From contig LLEY01000014.1 in the NCBI GenBank assembly GCA_001414485.1, positions 496,001 through 560,000 on the forward strand: 64,000 nucleotides of DNA. Direction: 5' to 3'. The translations under genes were made by a program, and so were the position numbers. The notes beneath the pieces are model-generated. The model saw nothing but the letters and a program-made list of their open reading frames with translations. It was not told the DNA's origin and ran no database searches. Each line of letters opens with the position of its first letter. Positions within the stretch are counted from its first letter, which is position 1. This document shows, piece by piece, positions 3,121-53,029 of this stretch. Source of the stretch: Calycina herbarum. Its lineage: Eukaryota; Ascomycota; Leotiomycetes; Helotiales; Pezizellaceae.

Positions 3121-6100
3121 TCACCTTGCTCTGTGAGACCGGTGACTTCTATCTCTGTTCTTTTTGCTCTTGTCTCGTGGAATTTCCACAGGGGTATCTT
3201 TCAATTCTTCAGTCATGACCTTGAGCATATAGTCATCAGTAGACTTGACGTGGTCTCCCCAGGCATTGAGCTCTTCCTCTTCAACCGGTTCCACCACAGC
3301 CTCGGACTCGACCTCAGCCGCTGGAGTTTCTTCTCCTGGTGTCTCGTCTACCTCACGAGGAGTGTTTGTCGTCGCCGTAACAGCATTCTCGTCGAAATCT
3401 GCGGCATCCGTTTCGTTTATTTCTCGTTCAGCTACCCGAGCTGCTGCCACATCTTCTCGGTCCTCGGCTTGAGCCAATACTCGTTGAACATTTTTGTTAT
3501 TGCCAGGGCCACCGAGAACGCGATCCATAGCGGCACTTGCGGCAGCCGCATCTTCATCAAGAGGAGTCGTTTCGTCTTCTTCAATAAGTTCCTTGGTAGG
3601 TTTGTTGAAGTAGTCCGTCGTAAACTCTCCTTCCTGAATGACCACATCGTCCAACATACGTTTTTGGTTTGCTTTACGAAGGATGTTGGCCTCGATCGTG
3701 TGCTCTGAGACGAGGCGGTAGATATGTACCTCTCGAGTTTGACCAATTCGATGGCATCGATCTTGACATTGTGCATCCATGGCGGGATTCCAGTCAAGGT
3801 CGTAAAAGATAACAGTATCCGCTCCAGTCAAGTTGATGCCCAAACCACCAGATCGACTGGACAAAATAAATGCCAGGATGCGAGTATCATTGTTGAAACG
3901 ATCTGTAAGAATCTGTCTTTGTTCGACCTTTGTGTTGCCATCCAGCCGAAGGTATTTGTGGCCATGAATATTTAGGAATTGCTCGAGTATGTCGAGAACT
4001 TTGGTCATCTGGGTAAAAATGAGTACACGGTGACCACCAGCTTCCAATCTACGAAGAAGCTTAGCCAACGTCTGTAATTTCCCGCAATCATATTGTAGCA
4101 AACGCTTGTCTGGGAACTGGATAGATAACCGCATTCGTGCTTCGTGAAATGGATCCTTCTGCGACGTGTCGAGGGTCGACTGCACAGTAGTGATACCATT
4201 TTGCTTGAGAACTAGCGAGGATATATCCTTCGCGACAACTGGGGGAGTAACACAAGCAAACTTTCGGATTGTGGAATCCAATGTTTCCGAACGCGAAGCT
4301 AATGTAGGAACCATTGAATTCATTACCGGTGAATAGTTCGAAATCCAGTCCAACCATTTGCTTCGATTCTTGGGCTTGGGTTGATTAGGCCATTGTGGGA
4401 TACCAAATGTCAAAGTATCCAAGAGTTCTTTTCCATAAATGGGCCTTTGCTGCCGACGGAGGGCGTTGAGGTAAACACAGTGTTGAAGTTCTTCAAATCT
4501 TCCCCACCGCGACGCACTCTCTAGATATACCAGGTTGGAATTTGCAGTAGCTGGATTGAGTTGGGTAAGAGAGTTCTGTGCTCTTTGCCGTTGTGACTCC
4601 CGCATCTTCATCAGGAGCTGTTGCGCACTGAGTGTTCCGATTCGATTAGTGGCGGTGGTAGAAAGCCGCTCATGTTTAGTCGGAACAAGATTCAGGAATT
4701 CCAAGCTGACCGTGGACATCGGTTCTTCATTAAAGAGGCGCCTGCGAACAAGAAGCTCTTTGATCTCAAAGTCTGCAATGGCCGATTTTTCCATAGGGAA
4801 GGAGGTCATGATTGGGCGGTCCAGGAAGAGATCGGGGTGATTGCACACTTTCCTCAGTTGCATCAAACAATTGATTATCGACAAGTAATTTCCAGACGCC
4901 AAAGTACCTCTGGTGTCATCCCTGCTTAGGAAACTGTCATACAGTTCTCTCTGCCGCTTGGAAAGGCGACAAAATTCGACATGTTCATACTTTGCAGGCA
5001 TCTGCTTCTCGACGTCTGCTTTTAATCTCCGAAGAAGATAAGGCCTCAGCACTTTGTGAAGTTTGCTGATGATTGCTTTGGACTCGTCATCCATCTGGTC
5101 GCGACCATGTTCAAGAATCTGCTCGGAAGGCTTTTTGAACCAATCCTGAAACTCTTTCAAATTTGCAAACCCACCTACACCCGGCTCTGTACCATCCGAG
5201 GGCATCAGGAAATAAAGCAGAGACCAAAGTTCCGTCAGATTGTTCTGAAGAGGAGTACCGGTAAGGAGAAGTCGTGCTCGGGTATTGAAAGTCAACATTG
5301 CTTGCCACCTTTGCGACTGAAAGTTCTTGATGTTATGAGCTTCATCCAGGATCATGTAATGCCAAGGTCGGCGTTTAAAGATGGCTTGATCGCGAAGAAT
5401 GAGTTGGTAGGATGTGATACAGACATTCCAATTATTTTCTGCCTTCCACCCAATACGTTTTCTTCTGCGCTCCTCTATTGACCCGTAATAGGTTAATATT
5501 TTGAATCCTGGGCACCATTTCTTGAACTCCATTTCCCAGTTCAGAATGACACTAGTTGGGACAATCACAAGATGGGGGCCCCATACTTCATGCTCACACG
5601 CAAGATGCGCTAGTAAAGCTATCGTCTGTATAGTCTTACCGAGCCCCATTTCATCCGCCAGGATGCCGTTAGTGCCTGCATTATACAGCCCGGCAAGCCA
5701 GTCTAGACCATCGTGTTGGTACTCTCTGAGTGTTCCGCGCAATAGATGTGGAATTGGTGTTTTAAGTGTACTGGTCGGCTGTGGAGTAGAGCGCTGGCTA
5801 ACTTGCCCGCTGTTTTGGTGTAGCTCTACTGATGATGCTGAATCGGCCTCAGAGGGTTTTGTGTCGGTGGTCCTTGGGGTTGGTAGACTACTGCGGTCGG
5901 GACTTAGGGCTGTGACCTCTTGTATCTTCTTGATTGGCAACGGGGTTTCTGTGTCGGCATTGGTGGATATTTCGGTATTTTCAACAACGTAGATAATATC
6001 TTCCATGGGGAGGTCGTTTTGTGCGTTGCTCTCAACGACAGCAGAAGATGCTTCATGGCTGCTTTCAACAGCAGAAGGGGATGTTTCGTGGGTGCCTTCC

Positions 6101-28339: not shown

Positions 28340-31300
28340 ATGGCTACAACGAATAAGTCCGCCCCAGGCGGCCATTATTCTGGCAAGAATCCAATCCCGA
28401 ATATCCAAAAGTTTATGGAGAGTTTGGACAAGGATAAGAAAGAACGAGATGCAAAGATCAACGAGCAGGCAAAGTCTAAGCCAACTACTGCTTCGCCCGA
28501 GGTCCAAGATCATAAAAATGGTCAACCAACGGGCGTGGAAGGCTCGAAAAAGACAGTTACAGACCCAACCACTGGCCGGGAAGTCCAAATCGAAGATGTC
28601 AATGCTGACTTCATGAAAGCTGTTGAGAATCCTCAGGTACTCTCGATTCGCCCCTCTCTTCGCGAAATAACTTCGACTAACTTGTCACTTCTTAGCTTTC
28701 AGTACCAAATGCCAACCTTGGCAAAGACACACCTGTCAAGACAACCCCCAGTCAGTCGGGAGAAGAATATAGCCGCAATCAAGATATTACCGCCCCGCCA
28801 GACCCAATTGAACCCAATTCCACCTCCGATGTCCCTATCCATGGCGAGAAAACCAATATTCTTTTCCATCCCACACCCTCCGTCAGCTACGAACCCATGT
28901 ACGAGTCTCTGGAGAAGAGCACATATGTGTTATGTGGTGGAGTTTTGATATCAGTTGTTGTCTTAGGAAAGATGTTCGGTGGAGCACTTTATGGATTGAT
29001 ACCCCTTGGATTGTGCATATCCTCTGGAATTTTTCTTTGGATGAAGGAACTTGTCCGGAAAGGACGTGATGTGGAATGGTCTAGTGAGAAGGAGCGTGGC
29101 CAGACGGTAAGGACATCTCAAGTATATTTTAAATTGCTTCTTTTGCTGACATTAGAAGGCTACTGCGAATCTAATTCCCGAGTCCGTTGAATGGATGAAC
29201 ACATTTCTCGGAGTAATGTGGGGATTAATCGACCCGGATATGTTTGCTGCTGTTGCAGATACACTAGAGGACGTTATGCAAGCTTCAGTTCCGGGAGTTA
29301 TCGAAAACGTTCGAGTTGCCGAAATCAACCAAGGCAATAACCCGATCCGGATTCTTAGTCTGCGTGCACTTCCAGACGGCCATGTTACAGAAATGAAGGA
29401 CGATATCCACAGACAAAACGAGAAAAACAAGGATCCTCAAGAACTCGCGGCAGATGAGGAGGGTGGAGATTACTACAACCTAGAATGTTCATTTGCCTAT
29501 CACGCTCAGCCATCAGGTACTGGGGCTTCGGCAAAAGCGAAGAACATGCATATGCAACTTGTCTTTTATCTAGGTATCAAGGGACTTTTCGGCGTTCCAT
29601 TACCTATATTTGTCGAGTAAGTGCCCCTTGCCCCTCTCCTGGAGTATGATGAAGCGCCAGTAAAAGGTCAATTGTTTCAAGCATTTAGGCAGATTCAAGG
29701 GAATTGGCCTAGATAGTTGGAGTAATTGAGCCTCGTTGTTCCAAATTGTCCTAAGTATTTAGATTGGTTGTCATACATTACCTAAAGGCTTGGAACAGCG
29801 AGAGCATCAGGCAGGTACAAACCTGAGATGTTTTCTGTCGCTTTTACTATCCATTGCAGCCCCTCTATAGCAGCGGCTTTCCTCGCCATCTTCATTCGAA
29901 TGACATGGGAAAACTACTGACTAGAATTTCTCAGACTCCAAGGACTTGTCGGAACGGTCCGAATTCGCCTGCAAATGTCACCAGAGCCACCTTTCTTGAA
30001 AGCTCTGACTTTTACTTTGATGGGTTTACCAAAGGTTCAAGCCGGATGCATCCCAATGATCGAGACTGGAGTCAATATCCTCAACCTTCCTCTCATTTCC
30101 AACTTTGTGAATTACGCAATAGGTGCGGCAGCCAATGAGTATGTGGCCCCGAAGTCCATGACTCTTGATATGGGCAAAATGCTGCAGGGTGACGATATTC
30201 AGAAGGACGTTGAAGCTCTGGGCGTATTATGGATTCGAATTCATAAAGCTACCGGTCTCAGTAAGCAAGATGCTCGTGGAAGCGACGGAGGTGGAAGCGA
30301 TCCATACATCACTGTTTGTTTTTCCAAGTATGGAAAGCCAATGTACTGCACGCGAGTTATCCAAGACGATCTCAACCCTGTATGGGAAGAAACATGCGCA
30401 CTTTTGGTTACGCCTGATCTAATCAAGGCCGACGAGCAGCTCTCGATGGAATTATGGGACTCTGATCGATCTACTTCTGATGATGTCGTTGGAAAGGTTG
30501 AACTTTCCATGCAGAAGATGATCCAACATCCAGGAAAGATGTATCCTCAGCTCTCAAAGCTTCGTGGCATGGATGCAGATAGTTCTATGCCTGGCGAGCT
30601 CCACTGGGAAGTTGGATTCTTCGGAAAGCCCCAATTCAGACCAGCTCTTAGAACCCACGGCAAGGATGTCAACCTACCAGATCAACTCAAGGATAAGCCG
30701 GAACTCCAGGATGATAAGGGAACACTCGACAACGCAGAAGAAGACGCTGTTGTGCACACACCTCCAGACCCATTGTGGCCCAGTGGCGTTTGCAGTGTCA
30801 TTATCCATCAAATCGTCAACCTTGAACTTCAAAATATCAAAGGCAGCGAGGGTAAGCGTAAGGGTAGGGAATTTGAACCGGCTCATGAAAGTGGTGAAAA
30901 CAAGGAAGAGGAGAACAAGAAGTTACCCAGCAGCTACTGCACGATCCTCTACAACGACGAACTGGTATTTTCAAATCGTTCACCCGTTCGAGGCCCATTT
31001 TTACTAATTATTTCATAGGTATATCGAACACGTTCAAAGGTCGTCAGCAGCAAGCCCATCTTCAATGCCGGTACCGAGCGATTTATGCGAGATTGGCGAT
31101 CTGGAATCGTGACTGTTACAGTCCGAGATCAGCGTATGAGGCAGCATGATCCAATCCTTGGTGTTGTCCCTCTCAAACTCTCAGATATTCTTCAAACCAG
31201 TTCTCAAGTCACTAGATGGTATCCCCTCGATGGTGGCATTGGTTTTGGTCGCATCAGAATCTCTCTTCTATTCCGAAGTGTTGAGACTCGCTTACCCCCA

Positions 31301-32464
31301 ACACAACTTGGATGGGATGTCGGTACCTTCGAGTTCACCTCTGACAAAATTCTCGCTACGGGCTACAGCCAGAACGCAAAGCTCAAGATGAGAACAGGTG
31401 GCAGCTCTGGTAAGATTGGACGTGTACAATGCAAGAAGACCGACGAGGGCGATGGTATTTTCTGGGACATTTCCAAGAAGGATGGAAAAAACAATGTTCG
31501 ACTTCCAGTAAAGTATCGTTACCGATCTCCTGTTGTTTTTGAGTTTCACACAGCTGGCAAGCGTAGTGCTGATGCATACGCTGTTGTCTGGTTGCATCAT
31601 CTTGAAGATAACAAGGAAGAGAATATCAGTATCCCAATCTGGAAGACAGATAAAGGTATGCGATTAACACAGAACTACATTACCGAAGAGAACTTCCGCG
31701 ACATTCCGGATCTGAAAATCGAAGAGGTCGGCCGTCTTCAATTCCGTGGTCGATTCAAGGCAGGAACGGATGCAGATCACAGTGCTTTCGTTTCCGACAA
31801 CGACTCTCGCGAAACCCAAGAAACATGGGAAGCCTGCAACTCGGAAGGTGTACGAGAAACCATTGTCACCAAGGAACTTCCTCCTGCTGTCCAACAACTC
31901 CACGATCAATCCCTTACCCAGGGCCGAGATGTCCTCTCTCAAGCCGACGACGACGAAAAGAAGAAGTGGCTTTCAAAGGATGGAACGGATTGGAGTGGTG
32001 CATTTGGCAAGGATCCAGCGGAGTATGCACAGCGTAGTGGTTCTGTCAGAAGTCTTCGAGCTAACTCCCTTCCTAGCGCAGCAGGAAGAGGTCAAAGAGA
32101 GGGAACCCTGAACGAAAACATGTCGGAAGATGAAGACGACGAAGAAGACGAAGACGATTCTGACTCCGATTCTTCGAGTTCAAGTAGTGATCTTGGTGTT
32201 CAAGATGCTTCTACGGCACCTGCTGATGCTCCGGAAGGAGATGCTGCTAATGGCGATGCTGGCCATTCTAATAATCCGGTTAAGCAGGTTCAGGGATATA
32301 ATGAGAAGAAGAAGGGTTTGCATCGTAAGCAACGGGGTCTTATGCAATGGAAGCCGATGAGGAATTTGCAGTTTGCGAAGAATGAGGCGAAGTTTGCAGT
32401 CCGAAGAACTTTGAAGAAGGGTAGCTTGTCTGGACGACAACCGGATGTTGAGACTGAGACTTGA
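28340..32464 (+). CDS. SMP and C2 domain protein, Mug190/tricalbin-like membrane contact-site protein
   Basis: Five exons: 28340-28636, 28696-29106, 29156-29616, 29935-30964 and 31019-32464, all in frame, giving 1214 aa. The first 170 residues are polar. A hydrophobic hairpin at about 176-216 anchors it in the ER. An SMP lipid-transfer domain follows (about 240-475, with NTFLGVMWGLIDPDMFAAVA, RIRLQMSPEPP and KVQAGCIPMIETGVNILNLP). A C2 domain begins at about 485 (GVLWIRIHKATGLSKQDA, then GGGSDPYITV), and a second C2-like region (about 655-800) is split by the last intron. The C-terminus has an acidic Asp/Glu/Ser run and a basic tail. This order matches fission yeast Mug190 and fungal tricalbin relatives, which tether ER to plasma membrane. 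Intron 3 is 318 bp, five to six times the others, and contains an inverted repeat. The gene ends about 380 bp from the transposon compartment. Confidence 0.92.
29729..29828. repeat. Small inverted-repeat insertion inside intron 3 of the SMP-C2 gene
   Basis: Arms cctcgttgttccaaattgtc (from 29731) and cctaaaggcttggaacagcg (from 29781) are imperfect inverted copies. The right arm and its flank resemble 27443-27490. This may be a MITE-like or other short dispersed element that enlarged the intron. Confidence 0.45.
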
Positions 32465-33100: not shown

Positions 33101-33562
33101 TGTAACGAAACTTAAACAAACTAAACAAAGATGACTAAGTCTCGAAGGTTGGTTTGTAGGTAAGAAGTATAGACGCGATAGGTTATTTACTTAGAAGTAA
33201 ACTCGTTACTTGTATTAAAGATATTAAACAAGATAATAAGATTAATAACTAAAGTTGAGTACAAAGCTCCTATCTAATAGTAGACGTGCTAGTCTTATAT
33301 AGAACCTTCGTTCTCTATATATATTACCTATATTACTCGTATTACCTATATCGCTTGTAATTAGAGCGATTAGGTTAATTAGAGCGATTACGTTATATAA
33401 TTATATATAACTTCTAATAATATTATAATAGTAAGATCCTAAAACCCTTATATATCTTTTATATTACTGATTTCCTCCTATATTACCTTTCTTTCCTAGA
33501 TGTTATATCTTATCTTATTAGAGCGCTGTCTAGACTACTTACTACTTTCGTAATTCGTAATA
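33101..33562 (-). repeat. G1 left LTR (3' LTR in element orientation)
   Basis: 462 bp from tgtaacgaaactt to gtaattcgtaata. The canonical end CA has become TA. Confidence 0.88.
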
Positions 33563-33779
33563 CTATCCCCTTCTTAGCTTAGCGTATTCTTACGCTTAAG
33601 TATAAGCTAAGAAATGTTGTTTAGGAAGCTAGTAAGCTTCTCTTCCTTCTATTATATTATTAATACCTATTTATAAAGATAGACTTAAATAATATAGAAT
33701 TCTAAATACTCTTTAAATTAAACGATTAAGATATAAAATGATTCTCTATATCTAATATACTTAAGTAAAGACCGGTTAT

Positions 33780-34247
33780 TACTATATTAGCGTTACTAGT
33801 GGTTCTAAGTACTCTAAGTATACTAGAAAAGGCAAACCCTATAACGTTGAATAATAAAACCGAATACTCTTACTTTTCGAATAAGAGTCTATTAATACCT
33901 AGTAGTAGCGGTTATAGTAAGAGGAAGAGATAGTCTTTAAAGTTTAAGAAGAAGCTATATAAAAGAGTTCTAAGGCTATATAGAAAATCCTCTAATTATA
34001 GTAGTAGTAACGTTTTCTTACTAAGTAGAAGTAAGAGATATTCTAACATAGTCTTATAAACCTATAAGAGCTTGATAAAGCTAAGGAGAGAGAAAGAGAA
34101 GAGAAAGAGCAGTAGAAGACAGAGGAAAAACAATAGAAAGCAGAGATTATACGTCTAGCAGCTCTACCTATCCTCGCTAGTTCCTAATTTAAGCTAAGTC
34201 TCGACTTAGCCTTTCTTAAAGCTTTTCCTTCTAATTATAAGATATAG
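33780..34247 (+). pseudogene. G1 copy of the antisense passenger gene (coiled-coil protein)
   Basis: Plus-strand remnant opposite in direction to pol. Around 34065-34247 one frame reads ELDKAKEREREEKEQ, a stop, KTEEKQ, a stop, then RLAALPILASS, and ends LAFLKAFPSNYKI before a TAG at 34245-34247. It aligns with the clearer G3 copy (46332-46852). The internal stops sit where Gln codons are expected, as RIP predicts. The start position is approximate. Confidence 0.6.
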
Positions 34248-34399
34248 GTAAACCTAGGTTTTACTAGTAGAACTCCTAAAGTTATACTAGGCAATAGTTA
34301 AGATTACTTCTTAGTTCTTAAGTGTTTTTTAAGTATAGGTAATTTAACTATTTAATTAAGTATTTAACTTATTCTCTAATAAGTCTATAATTAAGAATC

Positions 34400-41392: not shown

Positions 41393-41838
41393 TATAACGA
41401 AACTTAAACAAACTAAACAAAGGTAACTAAGTCTCGAAGGTTAGTATACAGATAAGAAGTATAGATACGCCGGGTTGTTTACTTAGAAGTAAACTCGTTA
41501 CTTATATTAAAGATATTAAATAAGATAATAAGATTAATAACTAAAGTTAAGTACGAAGCTCCTATCTAATAGTAGACGTGCTAGTATATATAGAACCTCT
41601 TATACTACTTAGATCCTTATATAAGCCTAGATCTCTAAATCTCTCTAAATCTCTTAAGAGATCTAAGAGGATCTATTATATAACTACTAACGGTTATCTA
41701 ATAGTAAGATTCTAAAATACCTAAATATCTTTATATTACTAATTCCCTCCTATATTACTTTCTATTTCCTAGATATCGTGTCTTATCTTATTAGAGCGCT
41801 GTTTAAACTACTTACTATATATAACGTGATTTATAATA
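41393..41838 (-). repeat. G2 left LTR (3' LTR in element orientation)
   Basis: 446 bp, tataacgaaactt to gatttataata. The original TG start has become TA. Confidence 0.85.
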
Positions 41839-42059
41839 CTATCCCCTTCTTAGCCTAGTATATCTTTACGCTTAAGTATAAGCTAAGAAACTCGGTTAGA
41901 GTGCTAGTAGTATCCTTTCCTTTCTATTATATCTTACCTTATATAAAAGAAGAAAGAAGAATAAATACTTCTTATAAAAAGTATTAAAATAGTTTATAAT
42001 AAAATATTACTATGTTCTTACTATACTTTCTAAAAGCGTAGATACTTTATTAATACCTC

Positions 42060-42480
42060 TTAATCTTCTTAATATTCTAAATATATTTAGTTAAAGCTAA
42101 AATATAATAGAACTAATAATGCTTAGAAGAAGAACGTTCTCTATACTAGTAACTAGACCTTTATTAAAAGATAAGAGGAGAAGCTAGAGAGAGAGGAGAA
42201 GGAGGTAATAGCGAAGATTCTATAGTTACGAAAGTAGAAAGCCTTTCTTAAAGAAAGGTAACGTAAGATATCTTATTAAAGACTTCGTTTTCTTAATAAA
42301 CTTAATATTATTAAAGAGGTAGAAAAGAAAGAGAAGGAGGAGAAAGAAAGAGAGGAATAAGAGTAGCGAGAGGTAAAAGTTACCTATCTAGTAGCTCTAC
42401 CTATTCTTACTAATTCCTAATCTAAGATAGTCCTTAACCTAGCCTTCCTTATAGCCTTTTCTTTAGACTATGAAATATAG
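42060..42480 (+). pseudogene. G2 copy of the antisense passenger gene
   Basis: Plus-strand remnant with Lys/Glu-rich coding (gagaaggaggagaaagaaag around 42330), then a segment matching the conserved end of the G3 passenger (LAALP, then LAFL), ending ATA TAG at 42475-42480. It is in the same place relative to the LTR as in G1 and G3. The start is approximate. Confidence 0.55.
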
Positions 42481-44536
42481 GTAAACCTAGGTTTTTCTAA
42501 TAGAACTTCTAAAGTTCTATTAAGTAATAGTTAAGATTACTTCTTAGCTCTTAAGTGTTTTCTAAGTATAGGTAATCTAACTATTTAATTAGATACTTAA
42601 CTTATCTTCTAATAAGTTTATAGTTAAGAATCCTCTTAACTTTATATTTAATATTTAGGTTTACTAGTTAAATTTATATAAATAGAGCTAGTAGTGCCTC
42701 TAGTAGTACTAGTTTAAGTAAGAATATATAGAATATTAGATAGATGTTTATTATCTTTAGTAGTATTAATTTATAATTTAAAGGTCTCTTAACTTATTTA
42801 ATTTTAAATAGTCTAAGTTTTTTTATAATCTAGTTTATTACTTAGTCTTTTTATATTAATATTTTTTTATACTAAGTAGACTTTATTCTCCTCTTTTAGT
42901 ATTAGCTCTTAACTATGTTATTTATTATAGTAGTATAGATTTCTTTTAGCTATAAATTATAGGTTTTCTATAAGTTCCTTATATAGACTTTTAATTTTTA
43001 AGACGTAAATATAAGTAAGTTAATTATTAATAGTTATAGATAGTAGTTCTTAATACGCTGTTAATTTATATCTAAAGTTAGTATAGAATAGTATAATAAG
43101 TATTATTTCTATTACTAAACTATTATATATAAACTATACTAAGAGTAGTAGTTCTACCTAGTTATTTTACTAGTAGTTTATATAATAACAAAGGTATATT
43201 TTAACTACTTAATTTATCTATTTATTTCCTCTATTTATTTAAGAGTAAAAAGCTATAAAAAGCTTCCTTTTTATATCTAATTGTTTTATAAGAGTAATTT
43301 AAAATTTTAAGATAAAGAGCTTATCTCTATTTAAGAGTATTTCTTTAGATAGTCTATATCTTAAGACTACTTCTCTAAGGAATACGAATGCTAATTCCTT
43401 AGCTATACTTAACTCTATATATATTATTAGAATTATATACTTTATAAGTTAATTTATAATAACTAGGATTATGTTATATTTAACTCTTATTATTAGGTCT
43501 TTAGATTTTAGTAATTTAATAATAAAATCTATAGATATTAATTTCTAAGGTATCTATAGTATTAGAGTAGTATTTATCTGTTTATAAGAAGTATAGTAGG
43601 AGGCCTTATTCCTAGTATAGGTATTATATTCTACTATTACTTCTTTAACTATCGTAGATAATTAATTAATATAGTAATATTATCTTATTCTTTAAAGGGT
43701 TCTACGAATTCCTTAGTATCTATAAGCAAGCGTAGTATAGTATTCTTATATAAACTCCTTTATATACGAGCTAGGAACTTATAGTTTCTCTTTTATATAC
43801 TAGTTATAACCCTTATATATGTTTTAAATTTTATCTATCTAGATATTATTTATTACTACTATTTTATATATAGTAGGTACTAAGTCTTTATTTTTAAGAG
43901 TTTTTAAGATTATAATCTTCTTATACTCCTTATCTCTCTTATATCTAGGTTTCTAGCTAAGAGTATTAGCTTAAGTGTTTAATATTCTCTTTATATATTA
44001 AATAATAATATTAAATCTTCTTAATATCTTTAACTATCTAGCTAACTATCTAGTTATAAGTTCCTTAGTTGTTATAAATGTTTTAAGATTCTTATAGTTA
44101 AATAAAACTATAACTTAGTATTTTACTAGCTATAAATAAATTCTCTAGTATTCTAAAGCTAATACTATAGTAAGTAATTCTTTGTTAAAAATGCTATAGT
44201 TTTACTATACTAGGTTAAATGTTTTTAAATAATATATAATAGATATAAGTTTTCTTTTATTATTTAGTTATAAGTAAATTATACCTACTACTATATCTAA
44301 GGCGTCTATTTCGATTATACTAGGTTTTTCTTTATTAAAATTATATAAAATAGGTTTTTTTATAAACCTTGCTTTAATCCTCTAAAAAGCGTCTTTAACT
44401 TATTTACTCTAAATAAATTTAATAGCTTTCTTAACTAGTACTAACATTGGTTTAGTAATCTTTATATAGTCTTATATAAATAGATAGTAAAAGTTTATAA
44501 ATCTAAGAAAAGACTATATGTCTTTTATATTCTCTA
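42460..44536 (-). pseudogene. G2 pol remnant, part 1 (chromodomain, integrase, RNase H)
   Basis: Homologous to G3 46.8-48.9 kb throughout, with heavy TA conversion and stops. It is interrupted by P2 at 44537. Confidence 0.65.
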
Positions 44537-45753: not shown

Positions 45754-46189
45754 TATAACGAAACTTAAACGAACTAAACAAAGATGACTAAGTCTCGAAG
45801 GTTGGTATATAAGTAAGAAGTACAGATGCGCCGGGTTGTTTACTTAGAAGTGAACTTGTTACTTATATTAAAGATGTTAAATAAGATAATAAGATTGATA
45901 ACTAAAGTTAAGTACGAAGCTCCTATCTAATAGCAGACGTGCTAGTCTTATATAGGTGCTTCCTTCCTCGTGCTAGCCTGCTAGCTTGGTCGCTCTGTCG
46001 CTGCTAGACTACTAGACCTGTCGCCTCGTCTAGCGAACTCTTATTACGTGATTATAACTAAAAGAAATCCCTGGATCGCTTAGCTAACCTAACCGATCCC
46101 TATCTACTTATAAGAGTATTCTAATAGTGCTTAACCTGTTAGGACGCTGCCTAGTCTTTACTTATCACGTGTATATGTGATTCGTGACA
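45754..46189 (-). repeat. G3 left LTR (3' LTR in element orientation)
   Basis: 436 bp, tataacgaaactt to gattcgtgaca. It differs from the right copy only by transitions as far as I compared them by eye. Confidence 0.9.
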
Positions 46190-46331
46190 CTATCCTCTTC
46201 TTAGCTTAGCGTGTCCCTACGCTTAAGTACGACCTAAGAAATATCGTTAGAAGGCTAACGGCCTTCTTTCTTTTCTAATATAAATACCCCTCGTTCTCTA
46301 CGACGAACCGACTACGAAGCCCTTGGTAGAG

Positions 46332-46852
46332 TAATTAACTTATCGGGTAAGAAAATAGCTCTATATACCCGTTGTAAAAACGCTAATAAGGAACATAAGT
46401 ATTTTAGTCCTAGAGACTAAAAGTTGTTATAGTATAGCTGTTATACTACTATGAACAAGTCTTACGATGTTCGCGTCGTTAATTAAATACCTGTAGTAAA
46501 TAAGTAGGAGAGCGTCGACTCCTAGATCGAGTAGCTAGATAATAAAGAGGAGAAGAGCTATGCGGTTATAGCCGAGGCCATGGCTCGTATTCGCCGGCTA
46601 AAGAAGTAAAAACGCTAACTCTATGAGAAGCGTTAAAGGATGATAGCTGCTAGTCTTAACTTGCTTAACGAGTTAGATGCTGCTAAAGATTTGGAAAGAA
46701 AGAAGAAAGAGAAGGAGGAAGAAAAGAAGCAGATAGAAGAAGAGGCTGCTAGGCTGGCCGCTCTTCCTACGCCCGACGTTTCTGACCCTGCCCTCGCCCT
46801 AGGCCTTAACCTAGCCTTTCTTAAGTCTTTTCTTACTAACTATATGATATAG
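46332..46852 (+). pseudogene. G3 antisense passenger gene (Cys-containing N-terminus plus coiled coil)
   Basis: Plus-strand frame that can be followed for about 170 codons. A short Cys-bearing segment (ALYTRCKNANKEHKYF, then YSCYTTMNKSYD) is followed by an acidic part (EQLDNKEEKSYAV read across a stop), a basic helix (AEAMARIRRLKK), and an uninterrupted stretch from 46640: MIAASLNLLNELDAAKDLE, a run of Lys/Glu heptads, then LAALPTPDVSDPA and LAFLKSFLTNYMI, stop TAG at 46850-46852. All internal stops are TAA/TAG where Gln codons are expected, so it is a RIP-killed gene. From memory it resembles fungal proteins with a CxxC-type N-terminus and a coiled coil that are found around Gypsy elements; the function is unknown. 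Its end overlaps the pol stop (46836-46838) tail to tail. Confidence 0.65.
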
Positions 46853-49800
46853 GTAGACTTGGGTTTCGATAGTAGAACTCCTAAAGTTCCTTCGAGTACT
46901 GGCTAATGTTTTTTCTAGGTTCTTAAGTGTTTTCTAAATATAGGTAATCTAACTATTTTATTAAATACTTAACCTATCCTCTAATAAGTCTATAGTTAAG
47001 AATCCTCTTAACTTTATACTTAGCGTTTAGGTTTACTAGTTGAATTTCTATAAGTAGGGCTAGTAGTACTCTTAGTAGTACTAGTTTAAGCAAGGATATA
47101 TAGAATACTAGGTAGATATTTATTATTCTTAGTAGTGTTAATTTATAATTTAAAGGTCTTTTAACATGTTTGATTTTAAATAGTCTAAGTTTTTTATAAT
47201 CTAATTTATTACTTAGTCTTTTCGTATTAATGTTTTTTTATACTAAGTAGACTTTATCTCTCTCTTTTAGCGTTAGCTCCTAACTACGTCGTTTGTTATA
47301 GTAGTATATATTTCTTTCGGCTATAAATTATAAATCCTCTATAAGTTCCTTATATAGCCCTTTGATTTTCAAAACGTAAACACGAGTAAGCTGGTTATCA
47401 ATAGTCGTAGACAGCGGTTCTTAATACGCTAATAATTTATACCTAAAATTAGTATAGAATAGTGTAATAAGTGTTGTTTTCGTTACTAAACTATTGTAGG
47501 CAAACTATACTAAGGGCAGCAGTTCTACCTAGTTATCTTACTAGTAGTTTATATAATAACGAAGGTATATTTTAACTACTTAATTTATTTGTTCGTTTCC
47601 TTTATTCGTTTAAGAGTAGAAAGCTATAGATAGCTTCCTTTTCGTACCTAATCATTCTATAAGAGCGATCTAAAATTTTAAGGTAAAGAGCTTGTCTCTA
47701 TCTAAGAGTATCTCTTCTAGTAGTCTATATCTTAAGACTACTTTCTTAAGGAATGTAAATACTAATTCCTTAGCTATACTTAACTCTATATATATTATAA
47801 GAATTATATACTTTGTAAGTTGTTCTATAATAACTAGGATCGTATTATATTTAACTCTTATTATTAGGTCTTTAGATTTTAATAGTTTAATAATAAAATC
47901 TATAAATACTGATTTCTAAGGTACCTATAGTATTAGAGTAGTGTTTATTTATCTATAAGGTGTATAGTAGGAAGCCTTATTCCTAGTATAAGTATTATAT
48001 TCTGTTATTACTTCCTTAACTATCGTAGATAATCGATTAATATAATAGTATTGTCTTATCTTTTAGAGGGTTCTACGAATTCCTTAGTAACTATAAGTAG
48101 GTATAGTATAGTATTCCTATATAAATTCTTTTATATACGAGCTAGAAACCTATAGTTTCCCTTTTACATACTAATTATAACCTTTATATATATTCTAAAT
48201 CTTATCTATTTAAATATCGTTTATTACTACTATCTCGTATATAGTAGATACTAAGTCTCTATTCTCAAGAGTTTTTAAGATCATAATCTTCTTATACTCC
48301 TTATTTCCCTTATATCTAGGTTTCTAGCTAAGAGTATTAGCTTAAGCATTTAACGTTCCCTTTACATATCGAATAATAATATCAAATCCTTCTAATATCT
48401 CTAACTATCTAGCTAATCGTCTAGTTATAAGTTCCTTAGTTGTCGTAAACGTCCTAAGGTTCTCGTAGTCAGATAAAACTATAACTAGGTATTTTACTAA
48501 CTATAAATAAATTCTCTAATATTCTAAAGCTAATACTATAGTAAGTAATTCCTTATCGAAGATACTATAGTTTTATTATACTAAGTTAAATATCTTAGAA
48601 TAATATATAATAGGTATAAGTTTTCCCTTATTATTTAGCTATAAGTAAACCGCACCTACTACTATATCTAAGGCGTCTGTTTCAATCGTGCTAGGTTTAT
48701 CTACGTCAAAATTATATAGAATAGGTTTTTCTATAAACTTTGCTTTAATTTTCTAAAAAGCTTCCTTTACTTATTTATTCTATATAAACTTAATAGCTTT
48801 CTTAACTAGTCCTAACATTAGTTTAGTAATCTTTATATAGTCTTATATAAATAGACAGCAAAAGTTTACAAATCTAAGAAAGGACTATACGTCTTTCACA
48901 TTCTCTAGTAACTTCTAGTTTAAGACGTCCTAGATCTTTACTAGATCCATTTCTATTTTTCCTAAGCTAAATACCTATCTTAGGAAAAGTGTCTAAGTTA
49001 CTTCGAACTCGCATTTCAAGAGTTTCAACTAAGAGTTTACTTTTATAAGTTATTATAAAACTTCTCTTATATATCCCTTATATTCTTCTTCTTTTTCTAA
49101 GAAGATTAGGATATTATCTAGGTAATAAATTACTATTACTCTTAGAAGATCTCTTAAAATGTTATTATTTTATCTCTAACATATAGCTAGTACGTTATAA
49201 AGTCTAAATAGCATAACTATATACTTATAAAGGCCTAATAGTAAGGCAAATACTATCTTTTATTTATCTCTGACTTTTATTCTTATAAGTCTATAAGCGT
49301 TTTATTAATCTAGTTTCGTAAATTATACTACCTTACCTAACTTATCCTATAAGTATTAGCTAGGTAGTAGCGGATAAGCGTCCTTAACTATAGTATAATT
49401 TACTTCTTAATAATTAATATATACTCTCCTATCTAGGTCGTCTTTCTTTTTAATAATAAGTATATTTAAGGTAATTAGCGACTCAGATCTCTTAATATGT
49501 CCCTTCTTAATACCTTCCTTTATATAACTTTCTATTCTCTATAGGCTTTTCTAGTTATATAACCGAAGCTTCTACTTCAAAAGGTGATAACCCTCTTTTA
49601 ATTTAATCTTATAATCTTATAAGCAATGTTCTAGTAAAGCTTACAAGTCTTCTAGGTTTTCGAACAAAGCCCTAAATTCTCTATACTACATAGGTATTTC
49701 GTTATTAGCTTTCTTACTAACCTGTAAAGGACCCTAGACAAGGTATCCTAGCGCTTTAGAAGAGGTAGCACTAACCTCGTTCTAGCCTTAAAGTTATAAA

Positions 49801-52593: not shown

Positions 52594-53029
52594 TGTAACG
52601 AAACTTAAACAAACTAAACAAAGATGACTAAGTCTCGAAGGTTGGTATATAAGTAAGAAGTATAGATGCGCCAGGTTGTTTACTTAGAAGTGAACTCGTT
52701 ACTTATATTAAAGATGTTAAACAAGATAATAAGATTAATAACTAAAGTTAAGCACGAAGCTTCTATCTAATAGCAGACGTACCAGTCTTATATAGGTGCT
52801 TCCTTCCTTATGCTAGCCTACTAGCTTAGTCGCTCCGTCGCTGCTAGACTGCTAGACCTGTCGCCCCGTCTAGCGAACTCTTATCACGTGATTATAACCA
52901 AAAGAAATCCCTAGATCGCTTAGCTAACCTAACCGATCCCTATCTACTTATAAGAGTATTCCGATAGTGCTTAACCTGTCAGGACGCCGCCTGGTCTTCA
53001 CTCATCACGTGTGCACGTGATTCGTGACA
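52594..53029 (-). repeat. G3 right LTR (5' LTR in element orientation)
   Basis: 436 bp with intact TG and CA ends (tgtaacg to gtgaca). It preserves several CA/TG sites lost in the left copy. Confidence 0.9.

Follow-up and report, generated by a model that had tools for sequence, protein, structure and literature searches.

An antisense gene of Gypsy retrotransposons in Calycina herbarum: a probable zinc-cluster protein whose types match those of the U3 block

What is the gene that lies on the opposite strand of a retrotransposon's own genes, and is it a gene at all? The question is raised by a 64,000-nt stretch of the leotiomycete Calycina herbarum (GenBank assembly GCA_001414485.1, contig LLEY01000014.1, positions 496,001 to 560,000 of the forward strand; hereafter the window), in which three nested Gypsy elements, G1, G2 and G3, each carry a reading frame opposite to gag-pol, just inside the 3′ long terminal repeat (LTR). 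An earlier note, made from the letters of the window, had taken this frame for a maintained antisense gene that serves the element, for example in the regulation of transposition or in chromatin targeting, or that was captured from the host. A maintained coding gene, probably regulatory, is now partly supported, by a Zn2Cys6-type spacing of cysteines, by an excess of third-codon-position changes and by one open copy; the results have no bearing on chromatin targeting. In the reading that we favour, with a probability of about 0.58, the gene would encode a dimeric Gal4-like regulator of the element's own LTR, with a private specificity in each subfamily.

The host element belongs to the Gypsy retrotransposons, and in its relatives pol ends with a chromodomain; in two sampled copies the part of pol adjoining the antisense gene matched a Tf2-1-like SH3 domain, and in one of them (L046) also a chromodomain. 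G3 is oriented on the minus strand, with TTTAA at both outer sides of its LTRs. The plus-strand frame described in the earlier note is clear in G3 and can be recognised in the other two elements: a related copy whose frame is open, used as the tblastn query, matched 46292-46903 in G3 (E 4e-56), 34053-34283 in G1 (E 5e-10) and 42178-42516 in G2 (E 2e-8). Its Cys-bearing N-terminus and its Lys/Glu region are both real, and the extent of ∼170 codons given for G3 was too short; copies and relatives define a gene of 208 codons and a stop (Table 1). The stop at 46852 is of the type made by repeat-induced point mutation (RIP), relatives extend 17 codons beyond it, and 10 stops lie inside the tblastn-matched stretch of G3 (copy L009 of the stop count).

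Three elements proved to be a large undercount. Related frames occur at at least 150 scored places of the 68.8 Mb genome that was searched (677 first-look candidates); with the antisense open reading frame (ORF) placed between pol and the 3′ LTR in G3, so many copies are not what a one-off capture would leave. A profile of the family matched 99 public proteins at E≤0.001, of which those with names are from ascomycetes, the first named being from Hymenoscyphus, Cadophora and Lachnellula; no Botrytis-named protein is among the 99, though most rows carry no organism. Viral contigs yielded no relative among 452 pattern matches to a 70-residue query. One public protein, P0062 (337 aa, Pseudogymnoascus destructans), is a gene model that fuses the zinc-cluster family with a stretch of Pfam PF11917.

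One copy of the gene, in L039, is open throughout, with 208 codons from stop to stop and 201 from the first ATG. The other copies are decayed, and the earlier note had attributed every break to a Gln-to-stop change by RIP. We counted 465 in-frame stops over 67 unique copies, and 367 of them stand where other copies have a Gln, Trp or Arg codon that is one C-to-T or G-to-A change away. The breaks are thus of more than one kind: the witness is Gln for 223 stops, Trp for 119, Gln or Trp for 19 and Arg for 6, and 98 have no transition witness. The analysis scored the kind of base change, irrespective of the neighbouring base, for which RIP has a preference. At the six cysteine positions the genome copies have Cys or Tyr in all but three cells.

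Selection on the frame was judged from changes between purines and pyrimidines alone, a kind that RIP does not make. Types A and B, represented by 13 and 25 copies (the types are described below), are separated by 103 such near-fixed differences. Counted from the gene's first base as 0, a group of 22 occupies −310 to −217 and is followed by a stretch free of them from −216 to −3; a single one stands at −2, the gene holds 80 as far as position 410, and the rest of the compared stretch has none. The 80 inside the gene fall on codon positions 1, 2 and 3 as 22, 18 and 40, an excess at the third position. The same is seen over the 451 closest copy pairs (0.44, 0.51 and 1.45 changes per pair at the three positions). 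Across 11 types that are far apart, the counts of 88, 71 and 100 show a weak skew (p 0.086), and pol has a phase of its own in them (18, 24, 5; p 0.002); the pol of G1 was omitted here because another sequence interrupts it.

That there is no gene here, and that the frame is open and alike among copies because of what pol and the LTR do on the opposite strand, is very improbable, though this view has something on its side at one end. Roughly 13 codons at the end of the frame lie opposite the chromodomain end of pol (the pol end was located by a text key in 6 of the 29 copies), and pol may extend further opposite the gene in types A and B. The conserved LAFLKSF-type end, which had been taken to link G1, G2 and G3, is recognisable in all three; since these codons partly face pol, it is no independent evidence there and is weak by itself. 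The N-terminal half lies beyond pol, has its own codon phase and keeps its six cysteines in public proteins; judged from sequence, this half is independent evidence for a coding gene. A pure pol shadow is ruled out for it, and stays as a caveat for the last codons.

The predicted protein has ∼200 residues, arranged as an N-terminal helix, a Zn2Cys6-type cluster, a linker, a long predicted coiled coil, a Lys/Glu tract and an acidic tail. Zn2Cys6 proteins are a large fungal family. The strict spacing C-x2-C-x6-C-x5-12-C-x2-C-x6-8-C is present in 66 of the 91 relatives of at least 160 aa and in none of 4550 shuffles, and a looser pattern of six cysteines is held by 83 of the 91; the acidic tail is found in 73/73 relatives. 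Zn_clus is the most frequent Pfam match (19/29 at E≤10, best 0.00075; one score is 17.9 vs a cut-off of 21), four relatives carry the UniRef name Zn(2)-C6 fungal-type, and two predicted models have a putative cluster and the coiled coil. Among rows of the Protein Data Bank (PDB), realignment gave Zn2Cys6 proteins in 10/10, and in 10/11 entries of a second set. A PDB search by sequence found nothing significant, the profile gave Gal4 and Put3 at E 0.6-0.8 amid unrelated coils, and Foldseek of the first model vs PDB returned no row at E≤10. Most likely the antisense product is a Gal4-type DNA-binding protein, for which binding of zinc and DNA and a dimeric state would be expected from its sequence.

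Gal4, Put3, Ppr1, Hap1 and Leu3 share with it the cysteine spacing, the order of cluster, linker and coiled coil, and the acidic tail. Unlike these factors, the antisense protein is small, is borne by an element and is without the long middle region that is a trait of the Gal4-type family; the residues between its Cys 2 and Cys 3 are often acidic. A captured host gene is a possible origin, the donor having been looked for in family and protein searches. In the search for a known host family, Pfam yielded Zn_clus-like and scattered sub-cut-off matches, and NCBIfam sub-cut-off matches alone, in 1 of 5 relatives. DUF7900 matched at E 0.0035, under its cut-off; it is named in no paper of the open-access PubMed Central (PMC) literature.

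Comparison of the copies separates two variable places from a common backbone. Of 57 distinct copies 29 were aligned, and 11 types were set up over them (copy L048_452 has no U3 in the alignment, and L074 was left untyped); between-type distances, repeats, correlations, codon phase and 4-mers were computed from one or two copies per type, the type-C copy of the distance matrix differing from that of the distance correlations. As far as the alignments go, most subfamilies share R-U5, pol and the 3′ end of the gene, and differ strongly in the DNA-binding and coil half of the gene and in a block of ∼110 nt in U3. Changes per site between types are 0.00-0.18 in the leader, which lies between the two places, and 0.00-0.15 at the gene end, vs 0.08-0.36 in the U3 block, 0.06-0.43 in the DNA-binding part and 0.01-0.35 in the coil part; some high values for the U3 block are doubtful as alignments, because an unrelated stretch of G1 gives 0.27-0.29. 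Pol varies within 0.05, the interrupted G1 excepted, and five A and three B copies have 2 fixed differences in 3000 nt of it. R-U5 is likewise within 0.05, except in L047 (0.10-0.14) and L074 (0.34-0.36), and pol stretches unlike the rest were seen in L074, L075, L076 and L079. Thus a pattern like that of the crapaud element, with U3 different and R-U5 and interior common, holds with the exceptions of L047, L074, G1, L075, L076 and L079.

The type of the U3 block goes with the type of the DNA-binding half. Pairs were formed by coordinates, with U3-block queries of types B, C, E and G (the type-B query is one base off the listed U3 block) and the best ∼40 scored candidates of each DNA list; 25 of 44 rows were used from one list, partial or weak matches being omitted, 40 of 42 from another, where the two omitted rows are short reverse-strand matches, and the other lists whole. 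Among the matches listed, 124 are to U3 blocks, and 52 of these adjoin a listed DNA-binding end; all 52 are matched in type (19 B, 16 E, 15 G and 2 C). The remaining 72 of the 124, without a listed DNA-binding end, are 5′ LTRs, solo LTRs or blocks whose ends fall outside the lists. No copy with the U3 block of one type and the DNA-binding half of another was met among the aligned copies readable at both places, L074 aside. Over the 11 types, distances in the U3 block correlate with those in the DNA-binding part (r 0.36, p 0.027), and distances in the leader with those in the gene end (r 0.52, p 0.001); direct neighbours show no such correlation (U3 and leader 0.08; leader and DNA-binding part −0.03). 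The gene, its cysteines, the types and their matching are in this way read off the sequences themselves.

Copy L074 (G000:C18) has a C-like DNA-binding half (0.12 from C) and an LTR stretch that does not align; it is a truncated, a nested or a truly exchanged element. Some DNA-binding types are rare, such as D, and others have at least 200 first-look candidates; the DNA-binding half of L041 (type D) has one full match in the genome, itself, and two weak ones.

Some features of the U3 block would suit a protein target. Near-repeats were scored against 100 shuffles per sequence, and shuffles as high were found 0/100 times for A, B, C, D and E, 1 for G and 3 for H, so that 7 of the 11 types are repeat-rich; the excess is not significant in c (9/100), J (6), I (18) and F (28). 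The leader shows no excess, except in F (1/100 shuffles), and R-U5 is mildly raised in some copies (3 to 5/100 in A, D, E and G). GCGA/TCGC is the top 4-mer of the block, with 25 observed vs 8.9 expected, in 9 of the 11 types. Beside the block lies a TATA-like box in gag-pol orientation (Table 1). A TATA-like word in antisense orientation is found at 46108 in the leader region of G3, and the same patterns found none in G1 and G2; with it, the U3 block of G3 would sit between two divergent promoters. An inverted-repeat stretch just before the gene, aligned over 15 copies, has seven pairs with 88.6% of cells paired and changes on both sides in 4/7 pairs, with the caveat that a slide by +3 gives a higher covariation score (0.305 vs 0.273); it could be a leader hairpin or a palindromic protein site.

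These features fit a mechanism in which the dimeric Gal4-like protein would bind the U3 block beside the TATA-like box of its own LTR and thereby govern how the element is transcribed, with activation or autoregulation as the more likely mode. That the U3 block is the target, and in which direction control would run, we infer. With the DNA-binding half and the U3 block in matched types, each subfamily would have its own specificity on a common pol; as the DNA-binding end lies next to U3, one template switch could move both. In a wider version, to which we give tentative credence, the antisense regulator and an array of U3 operators would form a module like a phage immunity region, whose two parts keep their match through exchange or homogenisation of leader, gag and pol between subfamilies.

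The protein might instead be a repressor that keeps elements of its own type off, for immunity or copy-number control. Many specificity types on one common backbone are the expected trace of type-specific immunity, for which the lambdoid phages are the analogy. Activators with a Zn2Cys6 cluster usually carry an acidic tail after it, and the presence of such a tail in all 73 relatives favours an activator over a repressor and makes this alternative unlikely. Rather unlikely as well, yet to be taken seriously, is a DNA-binding protein with a target other than the U3 block, the types then reflecting descent from founders and the closeness of two places within 700 bases. Each type is indeed a set of close copies, and variation of U3 alone is known in Tnt1 (PMC1838419) and crapaud (PMC10787394), as far as the available text of both papers goes. 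At odds with this alternative is the intervening leader, which is common to types A, B, C and D and differs between C and c, two types that share both variable places. Against common descent stands also that type A is found with two versions of the distant region that is gag by position. The absence of any mismatch in the 52 adjacent pairs, among the matches listed, speaks against it too. The same leader pattern makes it less likely that the pairing is due to physical linkage and nothing else.

Several results nevertheless weigh against an LTR regulator with type-specific targets. The correlation of U3 block and DNA-binding part depends on C and c, as p becomes 0.16 or 0.22 when either is left out, and has p >0.05 in 6 of 11 leave-one-out runs. 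It is mainly this one pair of types that suggests a travelling together of the two places apart from the leader. Matched pairs could also arise if the copies of each type have a common ancestor. In addition, none of 10 distant relatives matched Zn_clus at E≤0.1. Independent co-transfer of U3 block and DNA-binding half is thus suggested, not proven.

HBZ of human T-cell leukaemia virus type 1 (HTLV-1) is a basic leucine zipper protein, and we claim no homology between it and the antisense gene. As in our proposal, it is an antisense-encoded nuclear regulator of a retroelement (HBZ is mentioned in the available part of PMC11963269). Reports of antisense genes in the interval from pol to the 3′ LTR go back decades, with their function not known (PMC7264820, partial text); those of Boty and of plant elements are described in the accessible parts of PMC8365987, PMC7264820 and PMC11963269. 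Place and orientation are thus already known; for the zinc-cluster content and the pairing with U3 types, nothing was found in print in a search of open-access papers. A close case by description is brtn of the Boty-like element of Botrytis cinerea, also antisense, between pol and the 3′ LTR, in a chromodomain Gypsy of a leotiomycete (PMC8365987, PMC7264820, PMC4227169, PMC5987419); the available text of these papers mentions no zinc cluster or U3-type pairing for it. Plant Gypsy antisense ORFs (gene23 of Grande, RIRE2, TRP28 of Retand) have the same place and orientation, and nuclear location or DNA binding has been proposed and regulation suggested for them (PMC7264820, PMC11963269); unlike the gene described here they have other protein domains (TRP28), and matched U3 types are not mentioned in the text available.

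The variation of U3 has parallels of its own. In crapaud of Podospora anserina, an element with RIP, 14 LTR subfamilies are distinguished chiefly by U3, a division that the interiors do not reflect, the cause was left open, and template switching between packaged RNAs is discussed; in contrast to our elements two sense ORFs are drawn, and the word ‘antisense’ has 0 occurrences in the available text (PMC10787394). Subfamilies of the Tnt1 superfamily are likewise separated by U3 with RNase H conserved, in a plant element for which the accessible part of the paper mentions no element-encoded U3-binding protein (PMC1838419).

Our analysis gives the antisense gene a likely identity as a zinc-cluster regulator, makes the U3 block its candidate target and provides a genetic signature in the matched types. 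Should the proposal hold, it would join the function of antisense genes with the cause of U3 subfamilies on common interiors, and describe a retroelement whose transcription is under a private switch specific to its type; the matched-module version, if true, would explain why crapaud and similar LTR elements of fungi fall into U3 subfamilies.

Table 1. Coordinates in the window of the antisense genes, U3 blocks and associated features
Feature	Positions	Strand	Basis or remark
Antisense gene of G3	46280..46906	+	208 codons and stop; decayed, start lost, in-frame stops; ends checked
Type-specific half of G3 antisense gene (helix, cluster, linker, coiled coil)	46280..46669	+	near-fixed A/B differences, type matrix
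Zn2Cys6-like six-cysteine cluster of G3	46364..46465	+	alignment to relatives; some Cys changed to Tyr in G3
3′ part of G3 antisense gene (Lys/Glu tract, acidic tail)	46690..46906	+	far less variable between types
End of pol chromodomain frame	46868..46906	−	opposite last codons of G3 antisense gene
Type-specific U3 block of G3 with near-repeats; proposed protein target	45955..46068	−	near-fixed differences 45970-46063, repeats, GCGA/TCGC, pairing
TATA-like box, gag-pol orientation, adjoining U3 block	45947..45955	−	
Leader (start of U3, purine tract, antisense 5′ region)	46069..46279	+	identical or nearly so in types A, B, C
Inverted-repeat stretch (possible hairpin) just before gene	46238..46270	+	alignment A5, 15 copies, G3 copy not among rows
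3′ LTR of G3	45754..46189	−	LTR comparison, TTTAA outside
5′ LTR of G3	52594..53029	−	LTR comparison, TTTAA outside
Antisense gene of G2 (type G)	41929..42534	+	decayed; ends from DNA alignment
U3 block of G2	41593..41710	−	
Antisense gene of G1 (type I)	33654..34301	+	decayed; ends from DNA alignment
U3 block of G1	33302..33437	−	

A second strongly divergent region was seen among copies with a common pol, at nt ∼4200-5700 of the G3 element (gag by position); tied to it are the copies L042, L043, L048 and L049 and the part of the window to the right of 53029. Type A occurs with two versions at the gag position, one in L039, L046 and L050 and the other in L042 and L043. The AT-rich, element-filled part of the window starts near 32 kb, and directly to its left, at 31085-32464, lies an ordinary gene with a match to the third C2 domain of Mug190 (E 5e-57).
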